From the NCBI GenBank assembly GCA_021158185.1, contig JAGGVC010000045.1, positions 1 through 53,888 of the forward strand: 53,888 nt of DNA, written 5' to 3'. Source of the DNA: a bacterium (GTDB lineage Bacteria > 4484-113 > JAGGVC01). The notes under the pieces were generated by a model that did not search any database, was not told the origin of the DNA, and worked only from the letters and a program-made list of their open reading frames with translations. This document shows, in pieces, positions 35,736 to 53,887 of this stretch (within the stretch, counting starts at the first letter, position 1; each line of letters starts with the position of its first letter). Made by a program: the position numbers and the translations under genes.

Positions 35736-36704
35736 TTAAGCCAGCGCTTTGGCGAGTTCCTCTTCTAGCAATGGAACGATTTCGAAGAGGTCGCCGACAA
35801 TTCCATAATCCGCAACCTGGAAGATCGGTGCTTCCGGATCGTTGTTGATCGCGACGATTACTTTGGATGTCTGCATACCCGCAAGGTGTTGGATCGCGCC
35901 GCTGATCCCGCAGGCGATATAGAGCTTGGGATTGACGGTTTTCCCCGTCTGCCCGACCTGGTAGCTGTGTTCGATGTGCCCTGCGTCAACCATCGCGCGG
36001 CTTGAGCCCATCGCCCATCCAAACCGTTCCGCCATTTTTCTGAGCGGTTTGAATCCATCGGCGTCCTTCAGTCCGCGCCCTCCACTGATGATAATTTCGG
36101 CTTCTATCAGATCAACCATTCCAGCTTCCTTTGGCCGAAGTTCCTTTGTAACCGCGCTGTCGCTGCTTGCGTCGAACTGCATCTCGACAATCTCGCAAGA
36201 GCCGTCGCCCGCGTCAGCTGCGGGGAAGTTGTTCGGGCGGATGCTAAATAGCTGGATGCCGTCTCCGCGCAGCCTGCACTTGCTTATAATCTTGCCCGCA
36301 TAAAGGGGCTTGGTTGCGATGATGCGTCCGTCATCCTCCTTCTCAAACGCCGTGACATCGTCGAGAAGCCCTGCGTCGAGTTTTGCAGCGAGTCTTCCCG
36401 AGATATCGCGTCCGAACGATGTGAATCCGAAGAGAACGATTCCCGCACCTTCGGCCTCGATCGCTTTCTTCACGCTCTCGGCGAAGGATCTTGATGCAGC
36501 GGTGTTGAGCGCGGGATCATCCACGACATATACCTTCGATGCACCGCGCGATCCAAGCTCGCCGGCTGCATCTTTCGCGCCTTTTCCGAAGATAATCGCG
36601 GCGAAATCACCATCGATCGCGCGCGCGGCGCCGATAAGTTCGTAGCTTATCTTTCTAGATTTACCCTCGTTCGTTACTTCAGCAACTATAAGAGTTCCAG
36701 CCAT
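35736..36704 (-). CDS. etfA: Electron transfer flavoprotein alpha subunit
   Basis: A 322-aa ETF alpha subunit. The N-terminal domain begins [10 protein letters not shown], and the C-terminal FAD domain has [30 protein letters not shown] and the FAD-binding [20 protein letters not shown]. It pairs with etfB (56 nt upstream, same strand) to form the FAD heterodimer that accepts electrons from acyl-CoA dehydrogenases. The facing gene, a membrane ETF:quinone-type oxidoreductase, is the likely electron acceptor. GGGAG precedes the ATG. Confidence 0.93.
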
Positions 36705-36760
36705 TTTTTTCTCCCTGATTCTGAAAGAATGATTGCCGTTTCAATATTCTCCGGCGTACC

Positions 36761-37540
36761 CTAAAATACCTTAGAATCCTCGCTAAGCGCTCTCACGAGT
36801 TCCTTGACTTTATCCGCGGGCTCACCATCAATGATCCGTCCAGCTTGCCTTGCGGGTGGTGTCGAAAATTCGACGTATTCGACCTGGGATTCGGCGGGGT
36901 TTGCAAGTGATTCATCGAGGCCGAGATCGCTCAGCTCCTTCGTCTCCCACGGCTTTTTCTTTGCGCCCATGATGCCTTTGAGCTTTGGGTAGCGCGGCAA
37001 GTTTAGCCCCTTGTCCGCGGTGATCACGGCGGGAAGCGATACTTCTACAACTTCGACTCCGTCATCCGTGTTGCGCTCGCATATCGCTTTGCCGTCCTCG
37101 ATGTCGATCTTTATAGCCATCGAAACATGCGGAAGCCCAAGGTATTCGGCTACGAGAAGCGGAGTCTGCCCGTAGTCGTAATCAACGCCTTGTTTTCCCG
37201 CAAGGATGAGATCTGGCTTTTCCGATTCGAGTACCTTCGCAATGATTTTTGCCGCGCCGCGAGGGTTTGACCCTTCCATGTCGGTGCGGTTAACGACGAT
37301 GGCACGGTCTATACCCATCGCAAGGACGTTCAACAGAACCTTCTTCTCCGATACACCGCCGACCGTGACGAAGAATGTTTCGCCTGATAGGGCTTCGGCT
37401 TTCGTTATTGCCTCTTCCACGGCGTACTCGTCGTACGGGTTGACGACGTAATCGATGCCGTCACGGCTCACGCGCCCGCCTTCAATTCTAGGTCTCGATT
37501 CGGTGTTCGGAACTTCTTTTACAAGAACCGCTATCTTCAT
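36761..37540 (-). CDS. etfB: Electron transfer flavoprotein beta subunit
   Basis: A 259-aa ETF beta subunit. The start at the ATG at 37540 gives the family N-terminus MKIAVLVKEVPNTE with GGAG 6 nt upstream; the frame continues upstream without family similarity. Landmarks include NPYDEYAVEEA, GMDRAI-type motif (MGIDRAIVVN), LAGKQGVDYDYGQTPLLVAE and AEYLGLPHV. The insert GANAAD-type AMP site is present as expected for ETF-beta. A TTGACG-18-TATAAA promoter lies just upstream. Confidence 0.93.
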   Translation of the reverse strand: MKIAVLVKEVPNTESRPRIEGGRVSRDGIDYVVNPYDEYAVEEAITKAEALSGETFFVTVGGVSEKKVLLNVLAMGIDRAIVVNRTDMEGSNPRGAAKIIAKVLESEKPDLILAGKQGVDYDYGQTPLLVAEYLGLPHVSMAIKIDIEDGKAICERNTDDGVEVVEVSLPAVITADKGLNLPRYPKLKGIMGAKKKPWETKELSDLGLDESLANPAESQVEYVEFSTPPARQAGRIIDGEPADKVKELVRALSEDSKVF

Positions 37541-37574
37541 TTCAACTCCAAGAGAAGCAGGATTTAAGCACTTT

Positions 37575-37604
37575 TTTATACCATTGGCCAAATGAGCACG
37601 TCAA
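37575..37604 (-). promoter_or_regulatory. Sigma70-type promoter of etfBA
   Basis: Minus strand: TTGACG (37599-37604), 18-nt spacer, TATAAA (37575-37580), with the start codon 34 nt downstream. This is a good match to consensus. Confidence 0.7.
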
Positions 37605-37746
37605 GAGAAGAACGCTTCAAGTTATTTATCGTTCACAAGCATACGCAGTAGAATGTAAGAACGCATTATTGATGCTGCGCGTATGCAAACTCTGCGATGA
37701 ATGACTTTTTCCCGCCATGTTTGTGATTTCACGATGTAGAAGGGTT

Positions 37747-37774
37747 TTGCACAGGTTGCCGCAGCTGATATACT
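37747..37774 (+). promoter_or_regulatory. Probable promoter of the membrane Fe-S oxidoreductase gene
   Basis: TTGCAC at 37747-37752, 16-nt spacer, TATACT at 37769-37774, 40 nt before the ATG at 37815. The divergent arrangement with etfBA suggests joint regulation. Confidence 0.55.
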
Positions 37775-37814
37775 TTTGTATCACTCGCGTTCATTCCATT
37801 TTCCGAGGGAATCT

Positions 37815-39833
37815 ATGGATCCGACGTATTTCGGTGTAGTTAAGGCCCTGTATGCAGTCATTCTTCTTGGTTGCATCGGGTTCTTTTTCCTCCAGATTTT
37901 CCAGAGATTCAAGCATCTTCTTAAGGCAACGCCGATTCATCGAACCGACCGCGTCGGCGAGCGTATCGCCGGGTTTTTCAAATACTACCTGGGGCAGGGC
38001 AGGCTTTTTCATGGCTACCTCCTAGCTGGATTGATGCACGCTTTCATATTCTGGGGATTCTGGGTCGTTAGCGTCAACACGATCCATGCGATTATGGGCG
38101 GATTCGTCGCCGGATCGCATCTTCCCTGGCTCGGGCGAGAGCAGGCGCTCGGATCGCTCTACATCCTTTGCCGCGATATTTTTGAAGTGCTCGTGCTCGT
38201 TATGGTGGCGCTTGCAGGATTGCGCAGGCTGGTGACGCGTCCCAAACGCCTGACGTACGGTTTCGCGGCGCATCTGGTTCTGATCCTCATCGCCATCCTG
38301 ATGGTATCGGATTTCTTTATCAGCGGCGCGGAAGCAGTTGCAACAAATCCGCACAGACTTAGCTTTGTCGAAAACTTGATGTGGCCGTGGATGAGTTCCT
38401 GGGGGCTTGAGAGAGCAATCACTGTTGGAGTTGTCGCCTGGTGGATTCATCTCCTTGGCCTGCTTTATTTTCTGAATCTTCTTCCGAACGGCAAGCACTT
38501 TCACGTTGTAACGAGCGTATTCACTGTGTTCTTTAGAAGACTCGGTGCGCCCGCGCTTTCAAAGATCAATCTGGACGAGGCCGAGGAAGCGGAGAAATTC
38601 GGCGCGGGCGCGATATACGATCATCCCTGGAAGTACCTGCTCGACAGCTTTTCATGTACGGAGTGTGGGCGATGCCAGGACAACTGCCCTGCGTTCCTTA
38701 CGGAAAAGGAGCTCAGTCCCAAGCTCATCCAGGTCGATCTTCGGCATTATTTGTTCGATAATCAGCGCGCGCTCCTTGCGGGAAAGACGGAGGCGGACGA
38801 GGAAGGCGGTGTGCCGATGCTCCTTGGCGACACCATCGCTCACCAGCGGATATGGGACTGCACGACCTGCCGCGCGTGCGAGGAATTCTGCCCGCTTCTC
38901 ATCGAACACTTGGGGCCGATTATGGGCGCGCGTCGCTATCTCACGATGGACTTGGACGAGTATCCCGAGGAACTCACGCTGTTCTTCCGCAACATGGAGA
39001 GCCAAGCCAACCCGTGGGGCATAGGCCAGGAAAACCGCACGGCTTGGGCGGCAGGGCTTGATGTGCCGATTATGGCCGAGAATCCCGACAAGGAAGTACT
39101 GCTTTGGATTGGATGCTCGGCGAGTTTCGACGCGCGAAACCAGAGGATCGCGCGCGCGCTTGTAAAGTGTCTGAACGCAGCCGGTGTGGATTTTGGCTAC
39201 CTGGGCGAAGAGGAGACGTGCAACGGCGATCCTGCAAGGCGCGCGGGGCACGAGTATATGTTCCAGATGATGGCGGAGCAGGTCGTCGAGACGATAAAGC
39301 AGTATAAGAATCTCAAGAAAATAATCACGCTTTGCCCGCACTGCTTCAACATATTCGCAAACGAGTATCCGCAGATGGGGCTTGAGATCGAGGTTGAGCA
39401 CCATTCGATGATTCTTGCGCGGCTCGTGCGGGAAGGGAAACTGAAGCCGTCTAAGAGAACCGAACTGGGAAAACTCGTCTATCACGACAGTTGCTACCTC
39501 GGACGCTATAACGGTGTTTACTCGCAGCCGCGCGAAGTGCTTTGGGCGGTGCCCGGCGTAAAGGTGGTCGAAGCCGAGAGGCATCACGCAAAGGGGATGT
39601 GCTGCGGTGCGGGCGGAGTGCGCATGTTCCTCGAAGAGAGCACCGGCACACGGATCAATCACTTAAGGCTTGAGCAGCTTGCAGCAGGAAAGCCCGATGG
39701 TATTGCCACGGCGTGCCCGTTCTGCCTTACGATGCTCGACGACGCGATCAAAGAGACCGACCAGGCCGACAAGTACAAGATTATGGACATCGCCGAAGTC
39801 CTCGCAGCCGGGCTTGAGGAAGGAAGCGCGTAG
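37815..39833 (+). CDS. Membrane-bound ETF:menaquinone-type Fe-S oxidoreductase (HdrD-like with NarI-like domain)
   Basis: A 672-aa redox protein. Residues of about 5-240 hold five to six transmembrane helices with several histidines that could bind b-type haem (for example FHGYLLAGLMHAFIFWGFW and WWIHLLGLLYF). Two [4Fe-4S] motifs follow, CTECGRCQDNCP near residue 281 and CTTCRACEEFCP near 349. Two CCG domains then end in CCGAGGVRMF and CPFCLTML. This architecture matches the family that passes electrons from ETF to menaquinone in syntrophic acyl-CoA oxidisers, and the divergent etfBA genes agree. The ATG at 37815 has GAGGG 5 nt upstream. Confidence 0.82.
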   Translation: MDPTYFGVVKALYAVILLGCIGFFFLQIFQRFKHLLKATPIHRTDRVGERIAGFFKYYLGQGRLFHGYLLAGLMHAFIFWGFWVVSVNTIHAIMGGFVAGSHLPWLGREQALGSLYILCRDIFEVLVLVMVALAGLRRLVTRPKRLTYGFAAHLVLILIAILMVSDFFISGAEAVATNPHRLSFVENLMWPWMSSWGLERAITVGVVAWWIHLLGLLYFLNLLPNGKHFHVVTSVFTVFFRRLGAPALSKINLDEAEEAEKFGAGAIYDHPWKYLLDSFSCTECGRCQDNCPAFLTEKELSPKLIQVDLRHYLFDNQRALLAGKTEADEEGGVPMLLGDTIAHQRIWDCTTCRACEEFCPLLIEHLGPIMGARRYLTMDLDEYPEELTLFFRNMESQANPWGIGQENRTAWAAGLDVPIMAENPDKEVLLWIGCSASFDARNQRIARALVKCLNAAGVDFGYLGEEETCNGDPARRAGHEYMFQMMAEQVVETIKQYKNLKKIITLCPHCFNIFANEYPQMGLEIEVEHHSMILARLVREGKLKPSKRTELGKLVYHDSCYLGRYNGVYSQPREVLWAVPGVKVVEAERHHAKGMCCGAGGVRMFLEESTGTRINHLRLEQLAAGKPDGIATACPFCLTMLDDAIKETDQADKYKIMDIAEVLAAGLEEGSA

Positions 39834-39946: not shown

Positions 39947-40831
39947 CTACGCGTGGCTTAGAGTAGTTTCGATTTTGTCGAGGATCTTGGGCTTTATGCG
40001 CTGCCTGTTGAATCCAAGATTCTCGTACTGAATCCCTTGTGCGAGTGCAAGGAGCTGGAAATAGTAAACGGGCGGCGTGTTGAAATCCTCGCCGAACCTT
40101 TTCCCCACTCTCACCTGGCCATGGTCGAACTGCGAAAAACACGTCGGGCAGATCAGGCACAGAATATCAGCTTCGACATCTCTGACCGTGGACAGAATAT
40201 CGCGCATCATATTGGCGGGGATGTCTTCGTCCTGGCAGGCTTTCCCGCAGCAGAGGAACCAGTTGCGGTGTCTGACGGGCGTCGCGCCGAGCGCGGTAAT
40301 GAGCGCTTCCATAACTTTGGGGTCGTTCGGATCGTCCACGTTCATGATCTTGCTCGGCTTTAGCAGGTGGCAGCCGTAGTGGATTGCGACCTTCAGACCT
40401 TCGAGTTTGCACTTCACGGATTCCTTGACTGCCTCATAACCTGCCACGTCCCTGACCACCGTAACGATGTGGCGTACTCTCACTTCGCCTTTGTACTCGC
40501 GGTCTATGCGGGCGAGGCGCTTGTTCACCTTAGTGCGAAGTTCTTCGTCCTCCAGAAGGTGGCGCGCCTCTGATAAGGTCGCCGTGCAGCCGGAGCAGTT
40601 GGTTACGATGTCGAGCCCTTTATCTTCTGCCAGGCACAAGTTGCGGGCGGCTATCGAGAGCCAGGAAAGCTTGTCCTTCGACTTGAAATAGATCGGGTCT
40701 GGGCAACAGGACGCTTCGGGAAGATCTTCGAGCTCGATCCCCAGGTTCGGCAGCGTCTTCCTGATGGCGTATTCCATATGAGGGTATCTCGCTGGAATCA
40801 TGCAGCCCGGAAAGAATGCGAACTTGTTCAT
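39947..40831 (-). CDS. hdrB: Heterodisulfide reductase subunit B (HdrB)
   Basis: A 294-aa HdrB with two CCG domains that in methanogens bind noncubane Fe-S clusters: FFPGCMIPARYP, EASCCPDP and TNCSGCTATL in the first; HYGCHLLKPSK, WFLCCGKACQDED and LICPTCFSQFD in the second. All cysteines expected for both clusters are present. In methanogens HdrB reduces the CoM-S-S-CoB disulfide; bacteria lack that substrate, so here it must act on another disulfide or redox partner. It is the last gene of the minus-strand operon, and its ATG overlaps the hdrC stop by 4 nt. Confidence 0.9.
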   Translation of the reverse strand: MNKFAFFPGCMIPARYPHMEYAIRKTLPNLGIELEDLPEASCCPDPIYFKSKDKLSWLSIAARNLCLAEDKGLDIVTNCSGCTATLSEARHLLEDEELRTKVNKRLARIDREYKGEVRVRHIVTVVRDVAGYEAVKESVKCKLEGLKVAIHYGCHLLKPSKIMNVDDPNDPKVMEALITALGATPVRHRNWFLCCGKACQDEDIPANMMRDILSTVRDVEADILCLICPTCFSQFDHGQVRVGKRFGEDFNTPPVYYFQLLALAQGIQYENLGFNRQRIKPKILDKIETTLSHA

Positions 40832-41361
40832 TTGCCCGAATCCTCCTCCGCAGGAGCGAGAAGCTTATGAATTTCGTCCATCGGAATTTCCTCGAGAGGC
40901 TTGAGTCCGAGCTTTGCCCTTTCTTTGGTCACCGCGCTGCTGAGCTGAACCGTTCGTCCGGTTTTTTCGAAAGTATCAATGATCCTTGAGACGGTCTTCG
41001 GGACGATTCCCCTGTCCGCCAGCATGTTCTTAAGCGATATAATGACTTCGACCGGCTTAACATCCTGGGGGCATCGCTCTGTACAGTTGTAGCAGTTCGT
41101 GCAAAGCCAGAGAACCGAATCTTCCCCGATCAGCTCCTTTTCAAGACCGTAAAGCACCTTGAGCATTATCTCGCGTGGGTTGAAGTCGTCGCTGTAGAAA
41201 GTTGCAGGGCAGTCTCCCACGCAAGCGCCGCACTGGTAGCAAAAGCTCGCGAGATTGCCTTCGACCTTTTCGGCAAGCTCCTTTCTGAAGGCGAAATCGA
41301 TCCGAACAATCTCGTCTTCCTTGGGCTTGTCCAGATTGTTTTCGCTACTCATCCGATTCAC
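40828..41361 (-). CDS. hdrC: Heterodisulfide reductase subunit C (HdrC)
   Basis: A 177-aa HdrC, the electron conduit between HdrA and HdrB. Two [4Fe-4S] ferredoxin motifs are seen: CYQCGACVGDCP near residue 41 and CTNCYNCTERCP near 87, with the helical tail typical of the family. The GTG at 41361 is chosen because AAGGAC sits 8 nt upstream; the ATG at 41352 is possible. It overlaps the zinc-ribbon gene by 17 nt in front and hdrB by 4 nt behind, so it should be tightly coupled to both. Confidence 0.9.
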   Translation of the reverse strand: MNRMSSENNLDKPKEDEIVRIDFAFRKELAEKVEGNLASFCYQCGACVGDCPATFYSDDFNPREIMLKVLYGLEKELIGEDSVLWLCTNCYNCTERCPQDVKPVEVIISLKNMLADRGIVPKTVSRIIDTFEKTGRTVQLSSAVTKERAKLGLKPLEEIPMDEIHKLLAPAEEDSGK

Positions 41362-41531: not shown

Positions 41532-43997
41532 CTAAGGTGTTGAAACGGAAGCTTCAGTCTGCTTGGCGGACTTGGCTTTCCGCTGTTTCTTCGGCTTCTC
41601 CTGCAAAGCTTTGATCGTTTGCTCGATTTCTTCCTTCGTAACTTTCTTTCGAAGCTCTTCGACCTGCACCATTACCTTGGCGAACTTCTGACCTTCAGCG
41701 GCGCTTATCCATTCGAGCTGGAGCCGCTCCGGACGGATACCCAGGCGGTCCAGCTTGTTCCAGAGCCTTTGAACGCGCTTCACGGTCTGGCGGTTTGCGT
41801 TGATGTAGTGGCAATCCGCATAGTGACAGCCTGATACGAGTACGATCGGTGCTCCGCATCGGAACGCTTCAAGCACCATATCCTCCGAAACTCTGGCCGA
41901 GCACATCGTGCGGACCACGCGGTTGGTTGACGGGTAGTGGATTCTCGATATTCCTGCCATATCTCCGCCCGCGTAGCTGCACCAGTTGCACGCGAACACG
42001 AACACCTTGTCCTCGGGCTTGTCGGCGAGAATCGCGCGAATTTGGGCGATGAGCTGTTCATCGGTGAAGTGGCGCATGACGATCGCGTTGGATTTGCATG
42101 TCGCACCGCAGCAACCGCATCCTGCACACGCAGCCTCGACAACCACTGGAAACTGCCCTTTCTCCCAGATAATCGCGCCGTAGGGGCAGACGGATGCACA
42201 TGCGCCGCATTTGGTGCAGGCGTCCTCGATTATGTAGCTCGTTATTGCCTCGACCGTAATCTGACCGGCATTCAGGAGCGCACCCGATCGTGATGCCGCT
42301 GCACCTGCCTGGCAGACGGAATCCTTAATGTCCTTGGGGGATTCGCAGAATCCGGCGAAGTACACTCCCCTGGTGGGGGCGTCGATCGGCTTGAGTTTCG
42401 GATGAGATTCGAGGAAGAAACCGTCGGAGGTTTTCGAGAGCGTAAGAAGCCCGGATATCTTCGCCAGATCCTTCGGCGGGATGACTCCTACCGACAGTAC
42501 AAGCATATCGAACTCGTGCCTTTCGAGTTTGCCGGTGGTTGTATTCTCGACGGTTACAAGCAGGTTCCTGGTGAGCGGGTCTTCCTCGATATCGCCGGGC
42601 AGTCCCCTGATGTAGCGCGTGCCGGCTTCCTTCGATCTCTGGAACATATCCTCGAACGACTTGCCGAACGCGCGTATGTCCTGATAGAAAACGGTGTTAG
42701 TCAGATCCGGGTAGTGGTCGGCGAGAAGGAGCGTATCCTTGATCGTGTTCATACAACAGATATTGCTGCAGTACGGGCGACCGATGGCTGCGTTTCTCGA
42801 CCCGACGCACTGGACAAAGCCAATGCGCTTTGGTCTTTCGCGGTCGGTCGGTCTAATGAAGTGCCCGGCAGTTGGGCCGCCTGCGCAAATCAGCCTCTCG
42901 AACTCCATCGAGGTGATCACGTTCTCGAATCTCGTGTAGCCGTAATCGTCGAGTTCCGTCGGATCGTATACATCAAGGCCTATCGCAACGATTACCGCAC
43001 CTACGTCGCGCTCGATAATCTCATCCCTGTCGTCGTAGTCGATGCATTCCTGCTCGCACACATCTGCGCATTTCCCGCATGCGATGGGTGTTGTGCCAAG
43101 GCAGTCGTCCATATTAAGGATGTACGAGCACGGAACCGCCTGCGGGTAAGGGATGTATATCGCCTTGCGCGAGCCAAGTCCCATCTGATATTCGTCGGGC
43201 TTTACAACGGGGCACACTTTCGCGCATTCGTTGCAGGAGTTGCACACCTCTGGATCCACGTAGCGCGCCTTTTTTCGGATTTTCACGCTGAAGTTTCCGA
43301 CGTACCCGGAAACAGCTTCAACTTCGCTGTAGGTCAAAAGCTCAATATTTGGATGTCGACCGACATCTATGGCCTTGGGGCCCAAAATTCATATGGAACA
43401 GTCCATAGTGGGATAAGTCTTGTCAAGCTGAGCCATAATCCCGCCGATGGACGCCTCCTTTTCGACCAGAACAACTTTGTGGCCTGCATCTGCAAGCTCA
43501 AGGGCGGCTTCCATGCCGGCAACACCCCCGCCGATGACCAGCGCTGCCTTAGTTACGGGGACGGTCATCTCAACCTGCGGTTCGAGGAATCGCGCCCTGG
43601 CCACAGCGCCTGCCACAAGGTCCTTCGCTTTCGCGGTCGCGCCGTCCCAATCCCCAGGATGAACCCAGGAGCAATGCTCGCGCAGGTTCGCCATCTCCAT
43701 CAAGTACGGATTAAGCCCCGCTTCGAGCACGCACTGTCTGAAAGTCGGCTCGTGCTGCCTGGGAGTGCATGATGCAATAACGACGCGATTCAATCTGTGT
43801 TCGCGTATCGCGTTCTTGATCTCGTTCTGCCCCGGATCGGCGCATGTGTACTTGTTGCGGACGGCGCACACGACATCGGGCAGCGTTTCGGCATATTCGC
43901 TTACGGCGGCGCAGTCTACCGCTCCCGCGATATTCAGACCGCAGTCGCATACAAATACTCCGATCCTCAGATCTCCATCAACTTGTCTTTCGGACAT
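41532..43997 (-). CDS. hdrA: HdrA1: selenocysteine HdrA with C-terminal MvhD domain
   Basis: An 821-aa HdrA if the TGA at 43391-43389 is read as selenocysteine (U203). Without this the gene is split exactly inside the conserved DCSI-[C/U]-ILGPK motif. The start is the ATG at 43997, with GAGAGG upstream. Modules in order: N-terminal Fe-S domain (CDCGLNIAG, CADPGQ, CTPRQHEP); FAD domain GGGVAGMEAAL; the Sec motif; CNSCNECAKVCP and CGKCADVCEQEC near 250 and 307; CVGSRNAAIGRPYCSNICCM; two more ferredoxin motifs near 592 and 620; and from about 660 an MvhD [2Fe-2S] domain (FACNWCSYAGG, CHYADCHY). The tail is Lys-rich. HdrA carries the bifurcating FAD in the family. Confidence 0.9.
43352..43367 (-). 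promoter_or_regulatory. Putative bacterial SECIS of hdrA1
   Basis: On the minus strand GATGTC-GGTC-GACATC forms a perfect 6-bp stem with a G-first loop, beginning 21 nt after the TGA, so the loop is 27 nt away. This spacing and the leading G of the loop fit the bacterial SECIS consensus. The identical 16-mer follows the TGA in hdrA2. Confidence 0.75.
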
Positions 43998-44055: not shown

Positions 44056-45207
44056 TCAGTCCAGCGCTTCGACAACAAGTTCCGCTAAATCCTTGATTTC
44101 AATCTCGATATCCTCTTTAAGATTCGGGTCGTTCATTGCACACTTGAGATGAACCTGGCATTTGGGACAGCAAGTCACAAGCGTTGAAGCGCCCGTTGCT
44201 TTGGCTTCCTTCAATCGCCCGACCTGGATAGCCTTCGAATACCTGTCGCAATTCGTCCAGGTGCTTCCCGCACAGCAAACAGCGCGCTTGCCCGACTGGT
44301 GCATTTCAGCGAGTTCGATTCCGGGAAGTAAACCCAAGACGCTTCTGGGCGCGTCGTAGATTTCGAGATGCCTGCCGAGCCTGCATGGATCCTGGTAAGT
44401 AACGATGCGAGCATCCCCGTTTTCCTTGAAGCTAAGGTCGTTGTTACGAGCATTGATGAACTCAGAGATATGGAGAATTTCAGGGGGGCGTTGAGAGAAG
44501 TAAGGAGCATAATCAATCTTCCAGGTGCGCAGGCACTCCGCACAGGAAACGACGAGGATCGACGCTTTGCTGCTCTCTACCAGCTCGACGTTGTGCTTCG
44601 CAAGCAGATCGAAGCTTTTCCTGTCTCCGCCCCAAAGCAGATCGTGACCGCAGCATCTTTCCGATGGTGACACTATTGGCGTTATCCCGTGCTGGTTCAG
44701 TATTGAAATTGCAGCGCGTGTGCCGTTAAGCGAATGGACGCCCAGCTCATCGAAGAAGGCGTCCAAGTACATTGTGCATCCTGTCCAGTAGAAGACTTCG
44801 CTTTCATCCGACGTGATTCTGATGTCGTCTGTGATCCAGTCCATGCGGTTTTGCACCGTTTTTCCAGCTGCCATCATACGCATTGTAGACTGCAACGCGC
44901 CGCCGTGGGGGCAGCCAACATTATCCTCGCGATAGGTGTATTCCCTCAGTTTTTGCACAAGCTTAGAGTACTCCACAGAGGCGGGGCAGCTGCTGTCGCA
45001 CTTCATACAAGTAAGGCATATACCGAGAGAGCCGTTGCTCTCAATAGCTTCCCGATGATCGAGGTTGGTGGAGAGCACTTGTCTTCTGGGGCTGAATGGC
45101 GCGCCCGCTCTCGCTATCGGGCAGTTCGCTGTGCATTTCCCGCAGTCGTAGCATGCCCATGCACGGGTTTCCTTTCCGATTTGTGTTAGCCTGTCCATAT
45201 CGCTCAC
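44056..45207 (-). CDS. HdrD-like protein (fused HdrC-HdrB modules)
   Basis: A 383-aa Fe-S protein. Two [4Fe-4S] motifs (CYDCGKCTANCP near residue 19 and CLTCMKCDSSCP near 64) are fused to two CCG domains: FYWTGCTMYLD, ERCCGHDLLWGG and SCAECLRTW; then YQDPCRLGRHLEIYDAPR, RAVCCAGSTW and TCCPKCQVHL. This is the HdrD/GlpC-type architecture, a soluble single-chain equivalent of HdrCB. It may supply a second disulfide-reducing or electron-exit site in a complex with the MvhD encoded just upstream, whose stop overlaps its ATG by 4 nt. hdrA1 follows 58 nt downstream. Confidence 0.85.
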   Translation of the reverse strand: MSDMDRLTQIGKETRAWACYDCGKCTANCPIARAGAPFSPRRQVLSTNLDHREAIESNGSLGICLTCMKCDSSCPASVEYSKLVQKLREYTYREDNVGCPHGGALQSTMRMMAAGKTVQNRMDWITDDIRITSDESEVFYWTGCTMYLDAFFDELGVHSLNGTRAAISILNQHGITPIVSPSERCCGHDLLWGGDRKSFDLLAKHNVELVESSKASILVVSCAECLRTWKIDYAPYFSQRPPEILHISEFINARNNDLSFKENGDARIVTYQDPCRLGRHLEIYDAPRSVLGLLPGIELAEMHQSGKRAVCCAGSTWTNCDRYSKAIQVGRLKEAKATGASTLVTCCPKCQVHLKCAMNDPNLKEDIEIEIKDLAELVVEALD

Positions 45208-45695
45208 GGCTTCCCGTTGTTGCTACCCGCACGACGGCTTGAGAAAGGTCCGGGGCCAAGATCGCGTATCTGATCGGTGAACTCGTTAATCACCTCGGCA
45301 AATCGCGCGCCTTCGGCCGCGCTAATCCACTCCAGACGAAGCCTGCCGTCCTCGATTCCAAGTAGTTTGACCATTCTCTGGGTTCGCTCAAACTGCTCTA
45401 CGGCGCGCTCGTTCCCGAAAATATAGTGGCAGTCGCCGAAGTGGCATCCCGATACCAGGACACCATCTGCCCCTCTCTCGAAAGCCTTAAGGACAAATGC
45501 AGGTTGAATGCGTCCGGAGCACATAACACGAATAATTCTGAAGTGGGGCTGGTGCTCAATCCGCGTAACGCCGGCCGTATCCGCGCCCGCGTAGCTGCAC
45601 CAGTTGCAGGCAAAAACGATGATGTTGGGCGTCCAGCGGCGTTTGCTCTTTCGCGGCGTAACAGCATCCTTCGTTTTCACTTGCTCCGATGTCAC
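45204..45695 (-). CDS. mvhD: MvhD/FlpD-like [2Fe-2S] protein
   Basis: A 163-aa MvhD, the small subunit that in methanogens passes electrons from hydrogenase or formate dehydrogenase to HdrA. Motifs FACNWCSYAGADTAG, VMCSGRIQ and GCHFGDCHYIFGNE supply the [2Fe-2S] ligands. The start is GTG, overlapping the hdrA2 stop by 4 nt (GTGA). No MvhAG, formate dehydrogenase or NADH-module gene occurs in the operon, so its electron donor or acceptor is unknown. HdrA1 carries a second copy of this domain fused at its C-terminus. Confidence 0.9.
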   Translation of the reverse strand: MTSEQVKTKDAVTPRKSKRRWTPNIIVFACNWCSYAGADTAGVTRIEHQPHFRIIRVMCSGRIQPAFVLKAFERGADGVLVSGCHFGDCHYIFGNERAVEQFERTQRMVKLLGIEDGRLRLEWISAAEGARFAEVINEFTDQIRDLGPGPFSSRRAGSNNGKP

Positions 45696-48600
45696 AGCTT
45701 AGCCTCCACGGGGAGTGCTGCATCAATCATCGCGTTAATCTGCGCGTCGGTAAAATGCATGGCGGATATCGCTCCGGATGGACACCAGCTTGCACAGGTT
45801 CCGCATCCCTTGCACATGCTGGCGTTGATCCTTGCAGTGAATACGCCAGGTGAAACCTCATGCAACGACGGCGCTTTGAACAAGCAGATCTCTGCACATT
45901 TCCCGCATCCCCTGCACTTCTCTTCATCTACCACAGATACAGCAGGATCGAGCCGTACGTTGTCGTGTGCGAGAAGCGTCGCAGCCTTGGCCGCGGCAGC
46001 CGAGGCCTGCGCCACCGAATCAACGATGTCTTTCGGCCCCTGAACTGTGCCTGCAATGAAGACACCTTCTACCGCGGTCTCAACCGGCGCCAGCTCCGGG
46101 TGAAGCTCAAGGAAGAAGCCGTCAAGACCGAGACTTGTTTTGAGCATATCATGGAACTTGTGCGTCTCGGGCTGCCTGGGTCTCATACCCACGCTCAAGA
46201 CAACAAGATCCGTCGGTATTTCGAGCGTTTTGCCCAGAAGATCGTCTTTGCAGCGAACAGCGGTCGCCTTCTCGTCTCCGATGACTGAAGGTGTATCCGT
46301 TTCCGAATGGCGGATGAATAAAACTCCAAGCCCTCGCGCCTTCCTGTACATTTCCTCTGCGCCTGCAGATACCGTTCGAATGCCGCGATGCAGAATGGTG
46401 ACGTTGATTCCGATCTCTGCAAGCTGGATTGCCTGCTTTATTGCTGTTGGGCAGCAGTACCTTGAACATCCGGTGAACCCATTGGGGTCGCGTGAGCCAA
46501 CGCACTGTATGAATGTAACGTTGATTGGTCGTTTCCCGTCCACCTGCAGATCGCTTATGTCCATCATCAGAAGGTTTTCGAACTGCTCGCTCGTAATAAC
46601 ATTATCGAGCTTTCCGTATCCGTATTCACCCACGGGAACGTACAAGTCAGCCCCTATTGCAAGGATGATTGCTCCAATGTGCAGAACATCGTTGCTTTTG
46701 CCGGAAAGTTTGGCCTCGAAGTTGCCGACGTATCCTGAGATGCCGTCTACATCTGTTTCAAGAAGAACGCGTGCCCCGCTGTTTTTCAAGCGGTCAAGTT
46801 TTTCATCCATAACTTCGGAAGCCGGGCGCATATTCGGGTACATGCATTTAAGGAAGGGAATATCCAGGCGTCCGCCGAGCCTGGCTTCCTTTTCCACAAG
46901 CGTCACTTCGAATCCCTGTGCTGCAAGGTCGGTTGCGGATTCTATTCCCGCAATTCCCCCGCCGATTACGAGTGCTGCCCTTTGCATAGGAGCTTCGCCT
47001 TCGTACAGCGGATTGAGATTACGCGCTCTTGCAACGCCCATTCGAATCAAATCGCGCGCCTTTACCTGGGCGTCCTTGCGGGACTTCGAATGTACCCACG
47101 AACACTGGTCGCGTATGTTGACCATTTCAAACATGTAAGGGTTGAATCCGATCTGTGAGCACGTATCGCGGAACACGGGCTCGTGTGTTCTCGGCGTACA
47201 GGCGGCGACAACGATTCGATTAAGGTTATGTTCTTTGATCAGCTCTACGATCGCATCTTGCCCCGTTCCACTGCAGGTGAACTGGTGACCGGTGGCGATA
47301 ACGACATCAGGGATCTCAGATGAGTATTCGACGAGTTCGTCGACATCGAGAACACCCGCTATGTTGATGCCGCAATGGCATACTACGACGCCGATTCGCG
47401 GCGGCCCAGAAAGATCAAGCTGCTCTATGTCTGCTTTCTTCACGTCAATCCTGTGCTCATTCAGGAACAGTTGTGAACGAGATGCAGCTGCGGATGCCTG
47501 GGCAACACAGTCAGGTATTACTTCGGGGCCCGATGCGCTTCCACAGACGAATACACCTTCACGTGATGTTTCGACCGCGGACACAGCAGGATCCTTCCGG
47601 GAAATGAAGCCGTATGTATCCGTATCGATCCCCAGAATTTCTGCGAGTTCAACTGCGCCCTTTCTCGGTGCCGCAGCAAGCGAAAGCACCACAAGGTCGG
47701 CCTTCAAGCGAAGCTGCTCTCTGCTTGTCGTATTCTCGACGAATAATTCCAGCGAATCGGTTCCGGGAACGAGATCGATTTTCGCCGGACGTCCCCTAAG
47801 ATAAGTGGCGCTGTTTTCGGACTTCGAGCGCTCCACAAAATCGTCAAAGCCTTTTCCGAATGCTCTGAGATCGGAATAGAGAATCGTTATTTCCTCAACC
47901 TGGGGGTCGTGCTGTCTTATGAGCATCGAGTCTTTGACGGCGTTCATACAGCAGAACCTGCTGCAGTAATGACGTCCGCCTTCGCCGCGGGCTCCCACAC
48001 ATTGAACAAAGGTGATGTTTTTCGGGGTCTTGTGATCCGAGGGACGAACCACGTGCCCATTCGTAGAGCCGGAAGCGTTGAGCATCCTTTCCAGCTCGAG
48101 GCTTGTAATAACGTTTTGAAACCTGCCGAACCCGTAGTTGCCAAGCTTCCCTGCGTCAAACTCATCGAAACCGATCGCAACGATGATCGCGCCTACGTCG
48201 ATCTCGATTTCCTCTTCCTTCATATCGAAGTCGATTGCATCAACGTCGCAAGCCTTGACGCAGCGCCAGCATTGGCGGCAGTATTCATCGTCGATTACAT
48301 ATGCTGCAGGCACCGACTGCGGGAAGGGGCGATAGATAGCTTTGCGAGCCTTCAGGCCAAGGTCGAATCTGTTGCCGATCACTTCAGGGCATGCATCGAC
48401 ACATAATCCACAGGCCACGCAAATGTCCTCGTGTACGTACCTGGGTTTCTTGCGAAGCTGAACTTTGTAGTTGCCCGGCTCACCCTCGCAGCTTATGACC
48501 TCGGTCATGGTCATTACTTCCACTTGGGGATGTCGACCGACATCCATCATCTTAGGACCGAGGATTCATATGCTGCAGTCCATCGTAGGGAAGGTCTTGT

Positions 48601-48817
48601 CGAGTTGAGCCATCCTTCCCCCTAGTGTGGGTGATTTTTCTGCGAGCACCACTTCGATTCTTGAGTTGGCAAGATCGAGTGCAGCCTGGATGCCGGCAAT
48701 TCCGCCGCCGATTACCAAGGCTTTCTTTGCTTGCGCCGGATCTACACCCGTCCCCAATAAATCTGCATTAGCCAATACTAGCAATACCTCGCACAGAAAT
48801 AAAACCCTCGCTGGCAC
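45692..48817 (-). CDS. hdrA: HdrA2: selenocysteine-containing tandem double-HdrA
   Basis: A 1041-aa protein if the TGA at 48568-48566 is selenocysteine (U84). GTG at 48817 is preceded by TAGG. The first module lacks the usual N-terminal Fe-S domain and opens directly with the FAD motif [11 protein letters not shown], then [39 protein letters not shown] and [19 protein letters not shown]. At about residue 479 a second HdrA begins with its own Fe-S domain ([19 protein letters not shown]), FAD motif GGGIAGIES and CVGSRDPNG. It ends with [11 protein letters not shown] and [12 protein letters not shown]. The second module has no Sec or Cys at the DCSI position; the aligned segment reads [15 protein letters not shown]. 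Two flavins are therefore likely in one chain. Confidence 0.88.
48528..48545 (-). promoter_or_regulatory. Putative bacterial SECIS of hdrA2
   Basis: On the minus strand GGATGTC-GGTC-GACATCC forms a 7-bp stem with loop GGTC. The inner 6-bp stem begins 21 nt after the TGA, exactly as in hdrA1. Synonymous sites in the intervening codons (ILGPK) differ between the two genes, but the hairpin bases do not. Confidence 0.75.
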
Positions 48818-48826
48818 ACATTAAGC

Positions 48827-49414
48827 CTATGTGCCTGCTTTTACTTTCTTACCGGATTTCCCTTTGGCAGCATCTCCGAATTCCTTATCGAAGTACTCAC
48901 AGCCGGCATCAAACGCCTTGAGATTCAGTTCTTCCGTCCCAGCGGGAACTGAACTCAATACGGCTTCTCGCAATGCTTCTCGAGGCGCAATCTTGGTTAC
49001 AGAGCCGAAGAAACCGAGCATTACTATGTTCTGTACGATCTTGCGGCCCAGCGATTCCGCTATTCGTGTCGAAGTTATCCCGTAGGAGGCCTGGCCTTTC
49101 TTCAGCTTTGGATGAACGAGGTCCTTCTCGTAAATAAGTATTCCGTCATCCTTCAGTTCGTCACGGTATTGGTTGTATCCCTCAGATGACATAACCACGA
49201 ATATGTCTGGGCGCTGAATGTAAGGGTAGAGTACTTCAGTATCGGATACAACGAGTGTTGTGCTGCAGGCTGAGCCGCGCGCTTCGGGGCCGAAGCTCTG
49301 GATCATCGTTGCGTGCATCCCGGCGTTTATCGCGCAGGCATGGCCGATGATATGACCAGAGAGCACCACTCCCTGGCCTCCGTAACCTGTAATCCTTATC
49401 TCCGTTCTACTCAC
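48827..49414 (-). CDS. korC: 2-oxoacid:ferredoxin oxidoreductase gamma subunit
   Basis: A 195-aa gamma subunit: RITGYGGQGVVLSGHIIG at the N-terminus and FGPEARGSACSTTLVVS in the middle are hallmarks of Kor/Oor/Vor gamma chains. It contributes part of the CoA-binding and thiamine active-site region in the alpha-beta-gamma enzyme. Its ATG overlaps the beta-subunit stop by 8 nt, and hdrA2 begins 9 nt after its stop. The tail is Lys/Gly-rich. Confidence 0.9.
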   Translation of the reverse strand: MSRTEIRITGYGGQGVVLSGHIIGHACAINAGMHATMIQSFGPEARGSACSTTLVVSDTEVLYPYIQRPDIFVVMSSEGYNQYRDELKDDGILIYEKDLVHPKLKKGQASYGITSTRIAESLGRKIVQNIVMLGFFGSVTKIAPREALREAVLSSVPAGTEELNLKAFDAGCEYFDKEFGDAAKGKSGKKVKAGT

Positions 49415-50300
49415 GGATCATTCCCCCTTCGTTACTCATCGGTACGTACCTGTCGCCAAGAGTTCGTTTGTAATGATCGTGCATCATATCGAGGAAGGTC
49501 GGTCTTTCTTCGTCGATGAATTTGCCGCAGATGATCTTGTCCTGGAAGGAGATGTCGATATCCCGCGTGTCGACGCCGTTTCGGATCTCGGAGCTCTTTT
49601 CGTAGTAGTTAATGAGATTGAGTCCGGTGCCGAGCTTGTTCAGGCGCGCGTAGAGTGTGGAGCACGGCGTTACAATCTCGATAAAGCGGAATCCCTTCCT
49701 TGAAAGAGCTTCCTTGAACGCCTTGGTCATACGTCTTACATGGAGGCTTGTGTAGCGAGCGACATATGATGCACCGCAGCTTGCAGCAAGATGCGGGATG
49801 TTGAACGGACGCTCGAAGTTGCCGAAGGGCATCGTGGATGTTTTGGCCGTAATAGGCGTTGTAGGTGCGTTCTGTCCACCGGTCATCCCGTAGATGAAGT
49901 TATTGATGAGAATAACCAGCAGGTCGATATTCCGTCGGGCCGCGTGGATGAAGTGGTTTCCGCCGATGCCGACCAGGTCGCCGTCGCCCGAAAAAACTGT
50001 GACGAGAAGCTCCGGCCTGCCTAGCTTGAGACCGGTTGCAAAGGGAACGGCGCGCCCGTGCGTTGTGTGGAAACCGTCCAGATTCATATACCCGGCGGTT
50101 CGTCCTGTACAGCCGATGCCGGAAACAATCGATACCTTGTTGATATCGATGCCGCTTTCGTCAAGCGCCGTGGCATAGCATTTGACTACGGTGCCAATGC
50201 CGCAAGTCGGACACCATATATGGGGCATGCGATCCATCCGGATGTAAGGTGAAATCGGGTGTTCGGTTGCATCTATTGTTCTTTCGATTACTTTGCTCAT
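49407..50300 (-). CDS. korB: 2-oxoacid:ferredoxin oxidoreductase beta subunit (TPP-binding)
   Basis: A 297-aa beta subunit that binds thiamine pyrophosphate and a [4Fe-4S] cluster. IWCPTCGIGTVVKC gives the first cluster ligands, FSGDGDLVGIGGNHFIHAAR and NNFIYGMTGGQNAPTTP form the TPP site. The start overlaps the korA stop by 4 nt. The order ferredoxin-alpha-beta-gamma is that of oorDABC, so 2-oxoglutarate is the favoured substrate, with branched 2-oxoacids as the alternative. Confidence 0.9.
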   Translation of the reverse strand: MSKVIERTIDATEHPISPYIRMDRMPHIWCPTCGIGTVVKCYATALDESGIDINKVSIVSGIGCTGRTAGYMNLDGFHTTHGRAVPFATGLKLGRPELLVTVFSGDGDLVGIGGNHFIHAARRNIDLLVILINNFIYGMTGGQNAPTTPITAKTSTMPFGNFERPFNIPHLAASCGASYVARYTSLHVRRMTKAFKEALSRKGFRFIEIVTPCSTLYARLNKLGTGLNLINYYEKSSEIRNGVDTRDIDISFQDKIICGKFIDEERPTFLDMMHDHYKRTLGDRYVPMSNEGGMIRE

Positions 50301-51454
50301 TTAGCAGCCTCCAGAATTGCATCCCGAATATCTTCCGGATTGTGCACTCCTCCACCCATATGGGAGACCAGTATTGCAGGAACCTTGCCTGCTGCGCACC
50401 GTTCGACTTCCAGAACGATCTGGCCGTAGTTGATCTCCGGCACGACGAACGCCTTTATTTTCCCTGCAAGCTCCCGTATCCGTTTTTCGGGGAAAGGCCA
50501 GACTATTTGAAGCCTAATCACTCCGACTTTCACTCCTTTCTTCCGGGCAAGATCGATGCCCATCCGCGCAACGCGTGCGGTTATCCCGTATGTCACCAGC
50601 ACTACATCTGCTCCGTCAACCCCATCTTCTTTATACTTTGCGATCTCGTCCGCGTTCAGCCTGATTTTATCTACAAGCCTTTTAACAAGGACTGCCTGGC
50701 ATTCTTCGCTCATTACAGGGTAACCTTTTTCGTCATGCGTCAGGCCGGTAGTGTGAAATTTGTATCCATCGCCCGCACGGGCGAACTCGGGGATCATATT
50801 CCCGTTAACGAGGTAAGGTTTGTATTCCTCCGGTTTAGCTCTCGTCAGCTTCCGGGGTACGATGTCAATTTTGTCAGGGTCCGGTATGACAACCTTCTCC
50901 GTCATATGTCCGACGCACTCATCCATCATAAACAGAACGGGAGTACGGTACTCTTCGGCCAGATTGAATGCGTCTGTCATAAGATCGAATGCTTCCTGCG
51001 GGGATTCGGGACAAAGTGCGATGATTTCATAATCCCCATGTGAACCCCACCTGGCCTGCATCATATCGGCCTGTCCGACCATCGTAGGCAGGCCTGTCGA
51101 AGGGCCGCCGCGTTGGACATTCACGACCACACACGGTGTCTCCATCATCGCTGCAAGCCCGATATTCTCCATCATTAGGCTGAAGCCGGGGCCGCTCGTC
51201 ACGGTCATTGACTTCACGCCTGTCCACGAGGCACCGACAATAGCGGCCATGCTGGCGAGTTCGTCTTCCATCTGGATGAAAGTGCCGCCGATCATCGGGA
51301 ATCTCTGGGAAATGCGCTCTACAACTTCCGTGGAAGGTGTGATCGGGTATCCGGCAACGAATCTGCAGCCCGCAGCCATTGCTCCTTCGCCACAGGCATA
51401 ATCGCCATCGAGGTAGTGTTCGCCTGTTAAGACTCCCAAAGGGTCGGTTTTCAT
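50297..51454 (-). CDS. korA: 2-oxoacid:ferredoxin oxidoreductase alpha subunit
   Basis: A 385-aa alpha subunit. GYPITPSTEVVERIS (the 2-oxoacid-binding Y-P-I-T-P-S/S-T motif), TSGPGFSLMMENIGLA and NVQRGGPSTGLPT are diagnostic. The C-terminal domain II ends VSHMGGGVHNPEDI. It reads through from korD with a 4-nt overlap. Reaction: oxidative decarboxylation of a 2-oxoacid plus CoA to acyl-CoA, CO2 and reduced ferredoxin. Confidence 0.92.
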   Translation of the reverse strand: MKTDPLGVLTGEHYLDGDYACGEGAMAAGCRFVAGYPITPSTEVVERISQRFPMIGGTFIQMEDELASMAAIVGASWTGVKSMTVTSGPGFSLMMENIGLAAMMETPCVVVNVQRGGPSTGLPTMVGQADMMQARWGSHGDYEIIALCPESPQEAFDLMTDAFNLAEEYRTPVLFMMDECVGHMTEKVVIPDPDKIDIVPRKLTRAKPEEYKPYLVNGNMIPEFARAGDGYKFHTTGLTHDEKGYPVMSEECQAVLVKRLVDKIRLNADEIAKYKEDGVDGADVVLVTYGITARVARMGIDLARKKGVKVGVIRLQIVWPFPEKRIRELAGKIKAFVVPEINYGQIVLEVERCAAGKVPAILVSHMGGGVHNPEDIRDAILEAAK

Positions 51455-51777
51455 AAAGCTACCATCCTTGGTGTTGTCTCAGGTTCGAATGATTCGATTT
51501 CCTGATCGACGAGTCGTCTGTTTTCAAGCTGTATGCAGAAAATGGCGAATTCCGGGCAAATCATTTCGCAAAGGCCACAGTTAACGCACTCGTTCGGTTT
51601 GACTACGATGGGCGAATGATAGCCCTTTGCGTTGAATTCCGTGGACATCTCCAAAACGTCCTTCGGACAATACTCAACGCAAAACTCGCAGCCCTTGCAG
51701 CGATCCGCAATAATGTGAACTTCACCTCGGGGAATTTCCACCTGGTCCAGATCAAGGGGTTTACGCCAAAACTTCAT
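51451..51777 (-). CDS. korD: 2-oxoacid oxidoreductase delta subunit (2[4Fe-4S] ferredoxin)
   Basis: A 108-aa ferredoxin-type subunit with CKGCEFCVEYCP near residue 29 and CVNCGLCEMICP near 63, both complete [4Fe-4S] motifs. It begins MKFWRKPLDLDQVEIPRG and has a short acidic tail. It is the first gene of the operon. No ribosome site precedes the ATG at 51777, and a GATAAT -10 lies only 18 nt upstream. It would carry electrons out of KorAB to free ferredoxin or directly into the Hdr proteins encoded downstream. Confidence 0.9.
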   Translation of the reverse strand: MKFWRKPLDLDQVEIPRGEVHIIADRCKGCEFCVEYCPKDVLEMSTEFNAKGYHSPIVVKPNECVNCGLCEMICPEFAIFCIQLENRRLVDQEIESFEPETTPRMVAL

Positions 51778-52858: not shown

Positions 52859-53887
52859 TCAAGCTGTCTTTTCCACCAGCGACAAGCCTGCGCGCGCCAT
52901 TATGCTCAGGTAGTACTTCCTCAAATCGAGATACAGCCTCTGCAGGTAGCAGTCCGAGGCCGGGCATTTAGCGACCGAACCTGTCGCAACGTAATTCGTC
53001 GCCGGACATCCGCCCGTACAGCTTTTTTGCGCTTTGCATTTCACGCATTTCTTTCGCTCTACACTTGAAATCCTGTAATACTCCAAGCGGTTATCGAGTC
53101 TTTCCTTCGAAAAGCCGTTCACGACATCGCCGAGCGGCAGGAATCCCTCGCCGTCGAAAGCGCCCTGACCCTTCGCGCACGCCTGTATCTTTCCATCAAC
53201 GTCCACGCTTATTCGATAGCGCCCCGCGCTGCATCCCCAGACGTGGGTCATATCCGATTCGTCCAGCGTACCCCAGTTCTCAAGAAGCGAAATTCGTATC
53301 GGATGTTTCTTCTTCTTCAGGGCGACGTAATTGTCGAGAACCCGTTTCATCTGTTCGATAAACACGCGGTAGCCTGCCTTCGGCCATTCGATTCCCGTCG
53401 CGCACCCGATTATGAACTGGTTTATGCCGAGATCCACTAGCTCCATCACATCGTCCGCGAGCCTTCCCACGGTTTCGGGCGTTGGCGTTACCCGCGCGCC
53501 TAGCCACGGCTGGAAGTACTTCATCATCGGAATCCGGCTCGCAATCGTATCGAACGTGCCCGTGCCGTCGGGGAATTTCCGATGCGTGTTATGCGATTCC
53601 CGACCGCCGTCCATACTGAGAAGCAGGTTTACATTGTAGCCGCGGAAAAACTGCATCATCTCGGGCGTAATCAGGCTCCCGTTTGTCGTGATGCTGAATG
53701 ACGCCTTCTTGCCCGCGCGCATAAATTCACGCCGCGCGTACGGCACGAAGTCTACGATGGTATCGAATACGAGAAGCGGCTCCCCGCCGAATAATAGAAA
53801 TTGAATGCTCTCTTCGCTTCGCGATTCGCGCAGTATAAATCGAACTGTCTGCTTCAGTACGTGAAATGTCGTATCTCTGCGTTTCTT
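52859..53887 (-). CDS. Radical SAM enzyme with C-terminal SPASM domain (5' truncated)
   Basis: 342 residues are visible, and the frame stays open to the right edge, so the CxxxCxxC cluster motif lies outside the window. Core SAM-barrel motifs are present: FLLFGGEPLL (GGEP) near the visible start, SITTNGSLIT and LLLSMDGG. The SPASM domain that binds auxiliary clusters follows: CSAGRYRISVDVDGKIQAC, then CVKCKAQKSCTGGCPATNY and CPASDCYLQ. This architecture is used by peptide-modifying and sulfatase-maturing enzymes (anSME, PqqE and RiPP maturases). The substrate is unknown; the neighbouring small gene is convergent with it and so an unlikely precursor. The GTG at 53746 is internal. Confidence 0.85.
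   Translation of the reverse strand, partial: KKRRDTTFHVLKQTVRFILRESRSEESIQFLLFGGEPLLVFDTIVDFVPYARREFMRAGKKASFSITTNGSLITPEMMQFFRGYNVNLLLSMDGGRESHNTHRKFPDGTGTFDTIASRIPMMKYFQPWLGARVTPTPETVGRLADDVMELVDLGINQFIIGCATGIEWPKAGYRVFIEQMKRVLDNYVALKKKKHPIRISLLENWGTLDESDMTHVWGCSAGRYRISVDVDGKIQACAKGQGAFDGEGFLPLGDVVNGFSKERLDNRLEYYRISSVERKKCVKCKAQKSCTGGCPATNYVATGSVAKCPASDCYLQRLYLDLRKYYLSIMARAGLSLVEKTA

Follow-up and report, generated by a model that had tools for sequence, protein, structure and literature searches.

Two HdrA genes of one bacterial gene cluster carry an in-frame TGA, very probably a selenocysteine codon, at the residue aligned with an inter-subunit cluster ligand

The window analysed here, meaning the whole stretch of 53,888 nucleotides (contig JAGGVC010000045.1 of assembly GCA_021158185.1), is contig C52 of a bacterial genome of 2.33 Mb in 136 contigs, with 91% completeness, referred to below as the own genome (G000). 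On its minus strand lies a cluster that starts with korD-korA-korB-korC-like genes for a 2-oxoacid:ferredoxin oxidoreductase (48827..51777; names assigned by inspection only), followed by hdrA2 (45692..48775), which codes for a tandem, two-HdrA protein ('type II') of 1027 aa if its internal TGA is read as selenocysteine (Sec); the start codon is uncertain, the TTG at 48775 having been taken while a GTG at 48817 is open too. Downstream of it are an mvhD/flpD gene (45204..45695), whose start overlaps the hdrA2 stop, and a gene for a GlpC/HdrD-like iron-sulphur protein (44056..45207) with CCG domains, no internal stop and all NCBIfam matches below cut-off. The cluster continues with hdrA1 (41532..43997; 821 aa with Sec), an HdrA carrying an MvhD/FlpD domain at its C-terminus ('type Ia', NF040770), and with an hdrC-like (40828..41361; TIGR03290, 108.6 bits, below the cut-off of 160) and an hdrB-like gene (39947..40831; TIGR03288, 296.7 bits, below the cut-off of 345).

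Both hdrA products match 5odc_A, with E-values of 2.7e-232 for hdrA1 and 9.5e-208 for hdrA2. Against NF040770, hdrA1 reaches 1124.3 bits (cut-off 1100), which places it in the HdrA family, and hdrA2 scores 1061.3 bits over three stretches, below the cut-off of this single-HdrA model. In the available part of PMC12054007, type Ia has been defined as HdrA fused to MvhD and type II as two HdrA units, with E356 and K409 named as bifurcation residues. Residues 665-781 of hdrA1 form an FlpD domain, as in type Ia, and equivalents of E356 and K409 are found in both hdrA2 halves in all seven Sec-type tandem genes, as in type II. The tandem frames are longer in G004, G006 and G015 (1065, 1081 and 1064 codons) than in the window, G005, G009 and G010 (1026-1042), and the hdrA2 alignments at three loci (L064, L066, L069) break near residue 168, by an inserted ferredoxin domain. 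On another contig of the own genome (C70; L073, L094) a further HdrA relative has Cys at the same residue (DCAACILTPK); it shares 49% identity with hdrA2 over residues 19-131 and lacks GGTC at the place of the hairpin described below.

Other genes of the window were noted in passing. At 35736-39833, etfA-like and etfB-like genes (by inspection) adjoin a gene for a 685-aa FeS oxidoreductase with CCG domains and, judged by eye, a hydrophobic N-terminal part; this locus may possibly link beta-oxidation to the quinone pool by electron transfer. Positions 20636-24232 encode a probably secreted protein of 1198 aa in which Pfam identifies PKD domains, and a radical SAM/SPASM peptide-maturase-like protein (PapB-like, below cut-off) at 52859-53887 is cut by the contig end.

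Within hdrA2 the minus-strand bases 48571-48563 read ATA TGA ATC (Ile-TGA-Ile). The TGA (48566..48568, minus strand; residue 70 of the protein P0002) is the single internal stop of the gene; 84 codons are open ahead of it and 957 behind it. Likewise, hdrA1 has a single internal stop, the TGA at 43389..43391 on the minus strand (residue 203 of P0001), flanked by 219 open codons upstream and 618 downstream, in the context TMDCSI*ILGPKAIDVGRHP (also written TMDCSI*ILGPKAIDVG). The two genes share the motif DCSIU, in which Sec would be the last residue of CxxC/CxxU, and a gap-free alignment places both TGA-encoded residues opposite residue 197 of 5odc_A; the statement of the preliminary description that a second HdrA has a TGA at the same conserved site is thus borne out by motif and alignment alike. 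Under translation table 11, what remains of hdrA2 is a frame of 952 aa starting at 48550, without the first 75 residues, and hdrA1 breaks up into one frame of 617 aa and one of 217 aa.

In a search of 60 genomes (own genome included), which combined an hdrA2 query, motif reading in the loci and a covariance-model search with strict filters, a TGA at this HdrA residue was found in at least 14 hdrA genes from at least eight genomes, and in both hdrA genes of at least six (G000, G004, G005, G006, G010 and G015). In G009 a TGA was seen in hdrA2 only, the contig ending in mvhD. G032 has it in an hdrA1-like gene and has Cys in the tandem hdrA on its contig C67, a second tandem hdrA on C145 lying outside the site reading, and the tandem HdrA of G050 has Cys at the site. 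All ten available genomes of the own phylum were covered by the search; six gave matches at E <= 1e-30, and five of these six have the TGA. G004, G005, G006 and G009 belong to the own class. The double TGA occurs in three phyla, since neither G010 nor G015 has any rank below domain in common with the own genome and G010 is alone in its phylum. A scan for named relatives gave a single locus, a Cys-HdrA in a Bathyarchaeota bin.

The genes follow each other as kor-hdrA2-mvhD-glpC-hdrA1-hdrC-hdrB also in G004, G005, G006 and G015. In G004 and G006 korC follows hdrB, and in G006, whose contig begins in korA, korD was not seen; G010 has hdrC and hdrB before hdrA2 and, in the stretch read, part of the kor set only. 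In G015, which belongs to another phylum, the cassette is complete and has TGA in both hdrA genes (L069), at 81.5% identity for hdrA1 and 65% for hdrA2. In the hdrA1 and hdrA2 trees alike, G015 falls inside a well supported group with the own-class genes, the forks within these groups being weak. This nesting of the G015 genes suggests transfer of the cassette, a probable case of a two-selenoprotein cluster being transferred.

Behind each TGA the coding sequence can form a short hairpin with a 6-bp stem, GATGTC/GACATC, and a GGTC loop (48529..48544 in hdrA2 and 43352..43367 in hdrA1, both on the minus strand). Counted from the T of the TGA it spans nucleotides 25-40, and all 14 TGA sites of the eight genomes conform to GATGYC-GGTC-GRCATC. 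When any residue was allowed at the site, 125 sequences (124 loci and the window) yielded 29 distinct HdrA sites, of which 14 have TGA and 15 have Cys (11 TGC and 4 TGT codons); a narrower pattern admitting Cys, stop, Ser or Ala only returned the identical 14 and 15 sites. GGTC at nucleotides 31-34 is present at 14/14 TGA sites and at 0/15 Cys sites, two of the latter (L046 and L075) having 6-bp stems too, but with other loops. Among 95 invariant degenerate residues, just three are codon-identical in all 14 genes, namely +8 (GAT), +10 (GGT) and +12 (CAT), and all three fall inside the hairpin.

All 84 stem cells are paired, and the pair formed by columns 29/36 is CG in seven sites, UA in seven and broken in none, with at least four changes on a tree built without the hairpin columns. 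A tree-aware covariation test counted three supported independent pairs, all in one direction (p 0.25). None of 500 shuffles reached the observed covariation score or share of paired cells, in a control that ignores relatedness; the number of double-change pairs was reached by 249/500 shuffles and the number of pair types by 500/500, the covariation resting on one pair. Minimum free energy folding of 57 nt gave the GGTC hairpin in 13 of the 14 sites, the hdrA2 site of G006 folding in a different register, and RNAalifold recovered the same helix together with a weaker one at columns 11-13/18-20. With a covariance model of the region, searched against the 60 genomes with strict filters, the 14 TGA sites were recovered at E <= 5.3e-14, and the other matches listed had E-values of 0.005 (the Cys-HdrA site of G050), 0.006 (an HdrA region of G010) and 0.048. 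The Rfam model SECIS_1 (RF00031) matched neither the own genome nor any of 14 controls. A scan of the window for a TGA codon with a hairpin gave 14 candidates beyond the two hdrA sites.

Bacterial SECIS elements typically have a GGUC loop, and a literature search for this loop together with SelB returned no paper. In archaeal Sec decoding the SECIS lies outside the reading frame; this is the decoding used for the Sec-HdrA of methanogens, whereas the hairpin described here lies within the frame, downstream of the UGA, which is the bacterial arrangement. We infer that the hairpin behind both TGA codons is a bacterial-type SECIS that would be bound by SelB.

The own genome encodes the machinery such decoding calls upon. 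A tRNA-Sec was found at 70.7 bits and called by ARAGORN as tRNA-SeC with anticodon tca, the next three matches of that search (L002-L004) being two Ser tRNAs and one uncalled by ARAGORN. SelB (285.7 bits, cut-off 242.25), SelA (435.6 bits including neighbours in frame, cut-off 267.9) and SelD (358.4 bits, cut-off 125) all exceed their thresholds. The selD gene (G000:C107:3022-3948; L018, L074) has one in-frame TGA, read as CAG-U-AGK, so that SelD is likely to be a selenoprotein itself; the UAGK stretch fits UxxK, the motif given for known Sec-SelD in the accessible portion of PMC13188914. Of the 16 genomes tested for SelB, 12 have a match above its cut-off; the matches are below it in G004 and G006 (frames of 679 and 699 codons) and in G003 (414 codons), and in G050, which has Cys at the tandem HdrA site, none was found at E <= 1e-30. 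At E <= 1e-9, tRNA-Sec was found in six of nine genomes tested (G000, G004, G005, G010, G015 and G032) and was not found in G006 (88% complete), G009 (77% complete) or G050.

Several readings of the TGA codons have to be weighed. They could be true stops or assembly or sequencing errors in hdrA genes that are decayed or miscalled, as a fragmented assembly of 136 contigs might lead one to suspect, but the recurrence of the same TGA in 14 genes of eight genomes makes this extremely improbable: in none of these genes was an ordinary stop or frameshift seen elsewhere, the pattern that the preliminary description had named as refuting it, each frame being open to its normal end; dN/dS on both flanks of the TGA is 0.03-0.15 in the eight of 14 segments with unsaturated dS (in each of the 14 segments compared, dS either reaches about 1 or more or is saturated, the latter in six); and the GGTC hairpin stands behind TGA sites only. 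Reassignment of TGA throughout the genome, for instance to Trp or Gly, or its suppression by a near-cognate tRNA would equally leave the frame open when TGA is read through. This too is hardly credible, as against it stand the Sec machinery, the presence of Cys at all 15 homologous sites that lack TGA even with any residue allowed, and the use of TGA as the normal terminal stop of hdrA2 in 7/7 Sec tandems (45692-45694 in the window, overlapping the mvhD start), with no conserved reading beyond it in any of the seven. Genome-wide reassignment was rejected on the grounds that TGA terminates the tandem hdrA and that the non-TGA sites are all Cys. Both TGAs are therefore very probably selenocysteine codons, hdrA1 and hdrA2 encoding selenoproteins, as far as can be judged from sequence. 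The preliminary description, which had considered error or decay very unlikely and had envisaged two selenoprotein HdrAs in one pathway, is upheld in both respects, two such proteins encoded in one operon being the best reading given the SECIS-like hairpins with their compensatory change; two of the checks it had proposed, for selenoprotein machinery and for the same double TGA in related genomes, gave tRNA-Sec, SelA, SelB and SelD in the own genome and the same pair in five genomes besides it.

What the inserted residue would do is a separate matter. One possibility, which agrees with the preferred explanation on Sec reading, is that it forms a redox-active CxxU pair, acting by thiol/selenol chemistry or as a switch, and is not a ligand of an FeS cluster. 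We compare CxxU with thioredoxin-type redox sites, which it resembles, and the family table of PMC13188914, in the part available, lists HdrA as CxxU with no ligand role; we nevertheless find this reading rather doubtful in view of what occupies the position in HdrA with Cys. The residue numbering of 5odc is presumably that of the published structure in which the ligand was described, and the aligned position agrees. In the portion of PMC9012536 at hand, Cys197 of the solved Cys-HdrA is the trans ligand, supplied by one HdrA to the N-terminal FeS cluster of its partner; the paper also describes fused HdrAs whose parts complement each other in residue 197 and the N-terminal domain. The same complementarity is found here: the N-half of hdrA2 has the Sec and lacks the N-terminal cluster domain; in the C-half the N-terminal Cys motifs are present and there is no Cys at 197. 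This arrangement holds in all nine tandem genes aligned, seven with Sec and two with Cys, as would be expected for a ligand donated in trans. A point against the ligand reading is that the C-half of the window copy contains a Cys only a few positions ahead of the 197 region, which is absent from its relatives. The reading that Sec is a ligand of the N-terminal FeS cluster has, on this comparison, roughly an even chance of being right.

Selenocysteine in HdrA is not new. HdrA was listed as a bacterial selenoprotein family with 16 members in 2006, with seven Sec-HdrA in Syntrophobacter fumaroxidans and four in Syntrophus, and hdrA-hdrA neighbours were described (PMC1794560, in the part available). 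As far as this source goes, the Sec-HdrA of Deltaproteobacteria and Clostridia are like those reported here in the in-frame UGA, often in several genes per genome, and in the hdrA-hdrA neighbourhood; they differ in that the operons described contain the hydrogenase genes frhA/frhD/frhG and a Sec-GlpC, while the present cluster combines HdrCB with kor-like genes, and its GlpC-like gene is free of internal stops. Desulfobacterium autotrophicum HRM2 has Sec-HdrA1 and Sec-HdrA2 and, together with HdrL, resembles the present case in having several Sec-HdrA paralogues, linked to mvhD; its Sec-HdrAs are associated with hydrogenase genes and NADH-type HdrL fusions, unlike the kor genes found here (PMC2702500, available part). 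In Methanococcus maripaludis a Sec-HdrA (HdrA-U) likewise occurs alongside an isoform with Cys, expression following selenium according to the text accessible to us (PMC11097638).

Regarding architecture, the type II and Ia HdrAs (PMC12054007) and the HdrA 3/4 of ANME and the tandem HdrA of Moorella (PMC9012536) share with the present proteins the fusion layout and the complementary residue 197 and N-terminal domain, to judge from the parts of these papers available. In ANME HdrA 3/4, however, the cluster domain is in the N-half, whereas in hdrA2 it is in the C-half and residue 197 is Sec. An earlier example of a tandem HdrA with Sec may exist, as Moorella has a tandem HdrA and is listed with one Sec-HdrA in the available part of PMC1794560. 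Sec-HdrA with CxxU and genomes with multiple Sec-HdrA are thus already published, and hdrA1 and hdrA2 add another case. A literature search for HdrA Cys197 returned PMC9012536 only, in the accessible text of which the sole mention of selenocysteine concerns FdhA; a search joining selenocysteine, HdrA and 2-oxoglutarate ferredoxin oxidoreductase returned no paper, and the link between HdrA Sec at CxxU and the trans-ligand residue 197 was not met with in that part of the literature covered.

According to the model proposed here, the UGA would be decoded as selenocysteine by the SelB and tRNA-Sec of the cell, directed by the GGUC-loop hairpin. In hdrA1, the HdrA-MvhD fusion, the Sec would be donated to the N-terminal cluster of the partner protomer in a homodimer; in the tandem hdrA2 the donation would take place within one chain, the N-half giving the Sec and the C-half carrying the cluster domain. 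HdrA1-HdrCB and HdrA2-MvhD-GlpC would work with the kor-encoded 2-oxoacid:ferredoxin oxidoreductase. With MvhD, HdrBC, a GlpC/HdrD-like protein and the 2-oxoacid:ferredoxin oxidoreductase encoded together, the cluster is likely to serve in flavin-based electron bifurcation or confurcation with coupling to the ferredoxin pool. Taken as a whole, the proposal that Sec serves as a natural selenolate FeS ligand across the HdrA-HdrA interface, tuning the low-potential branch of bifurcation, and that the paired cassette with the 2-oxoacid:ferredoxin oxidoreductase moved between phyla with both SECIS elements, is one on which our judgement is evenly balanced.

These observations correct the annotation of two genes, both of which a standard gene caller would truncate, and add a double Sec-HdrA in a small phylum, represented here by ten genomes. 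They also bring together two published facts, given in the available parts of the respective papers, namely that HdrA has Sec at CxxU (PMC13188914) and that the residue at the aligned position serves in trans as the ligand of an inter-subunit FeS cluster (PMC9012536). If the ligand role is true, the tandem hdrA2 would provide a single-chain test case for selenium in an electron-bifurcating FeS relay.
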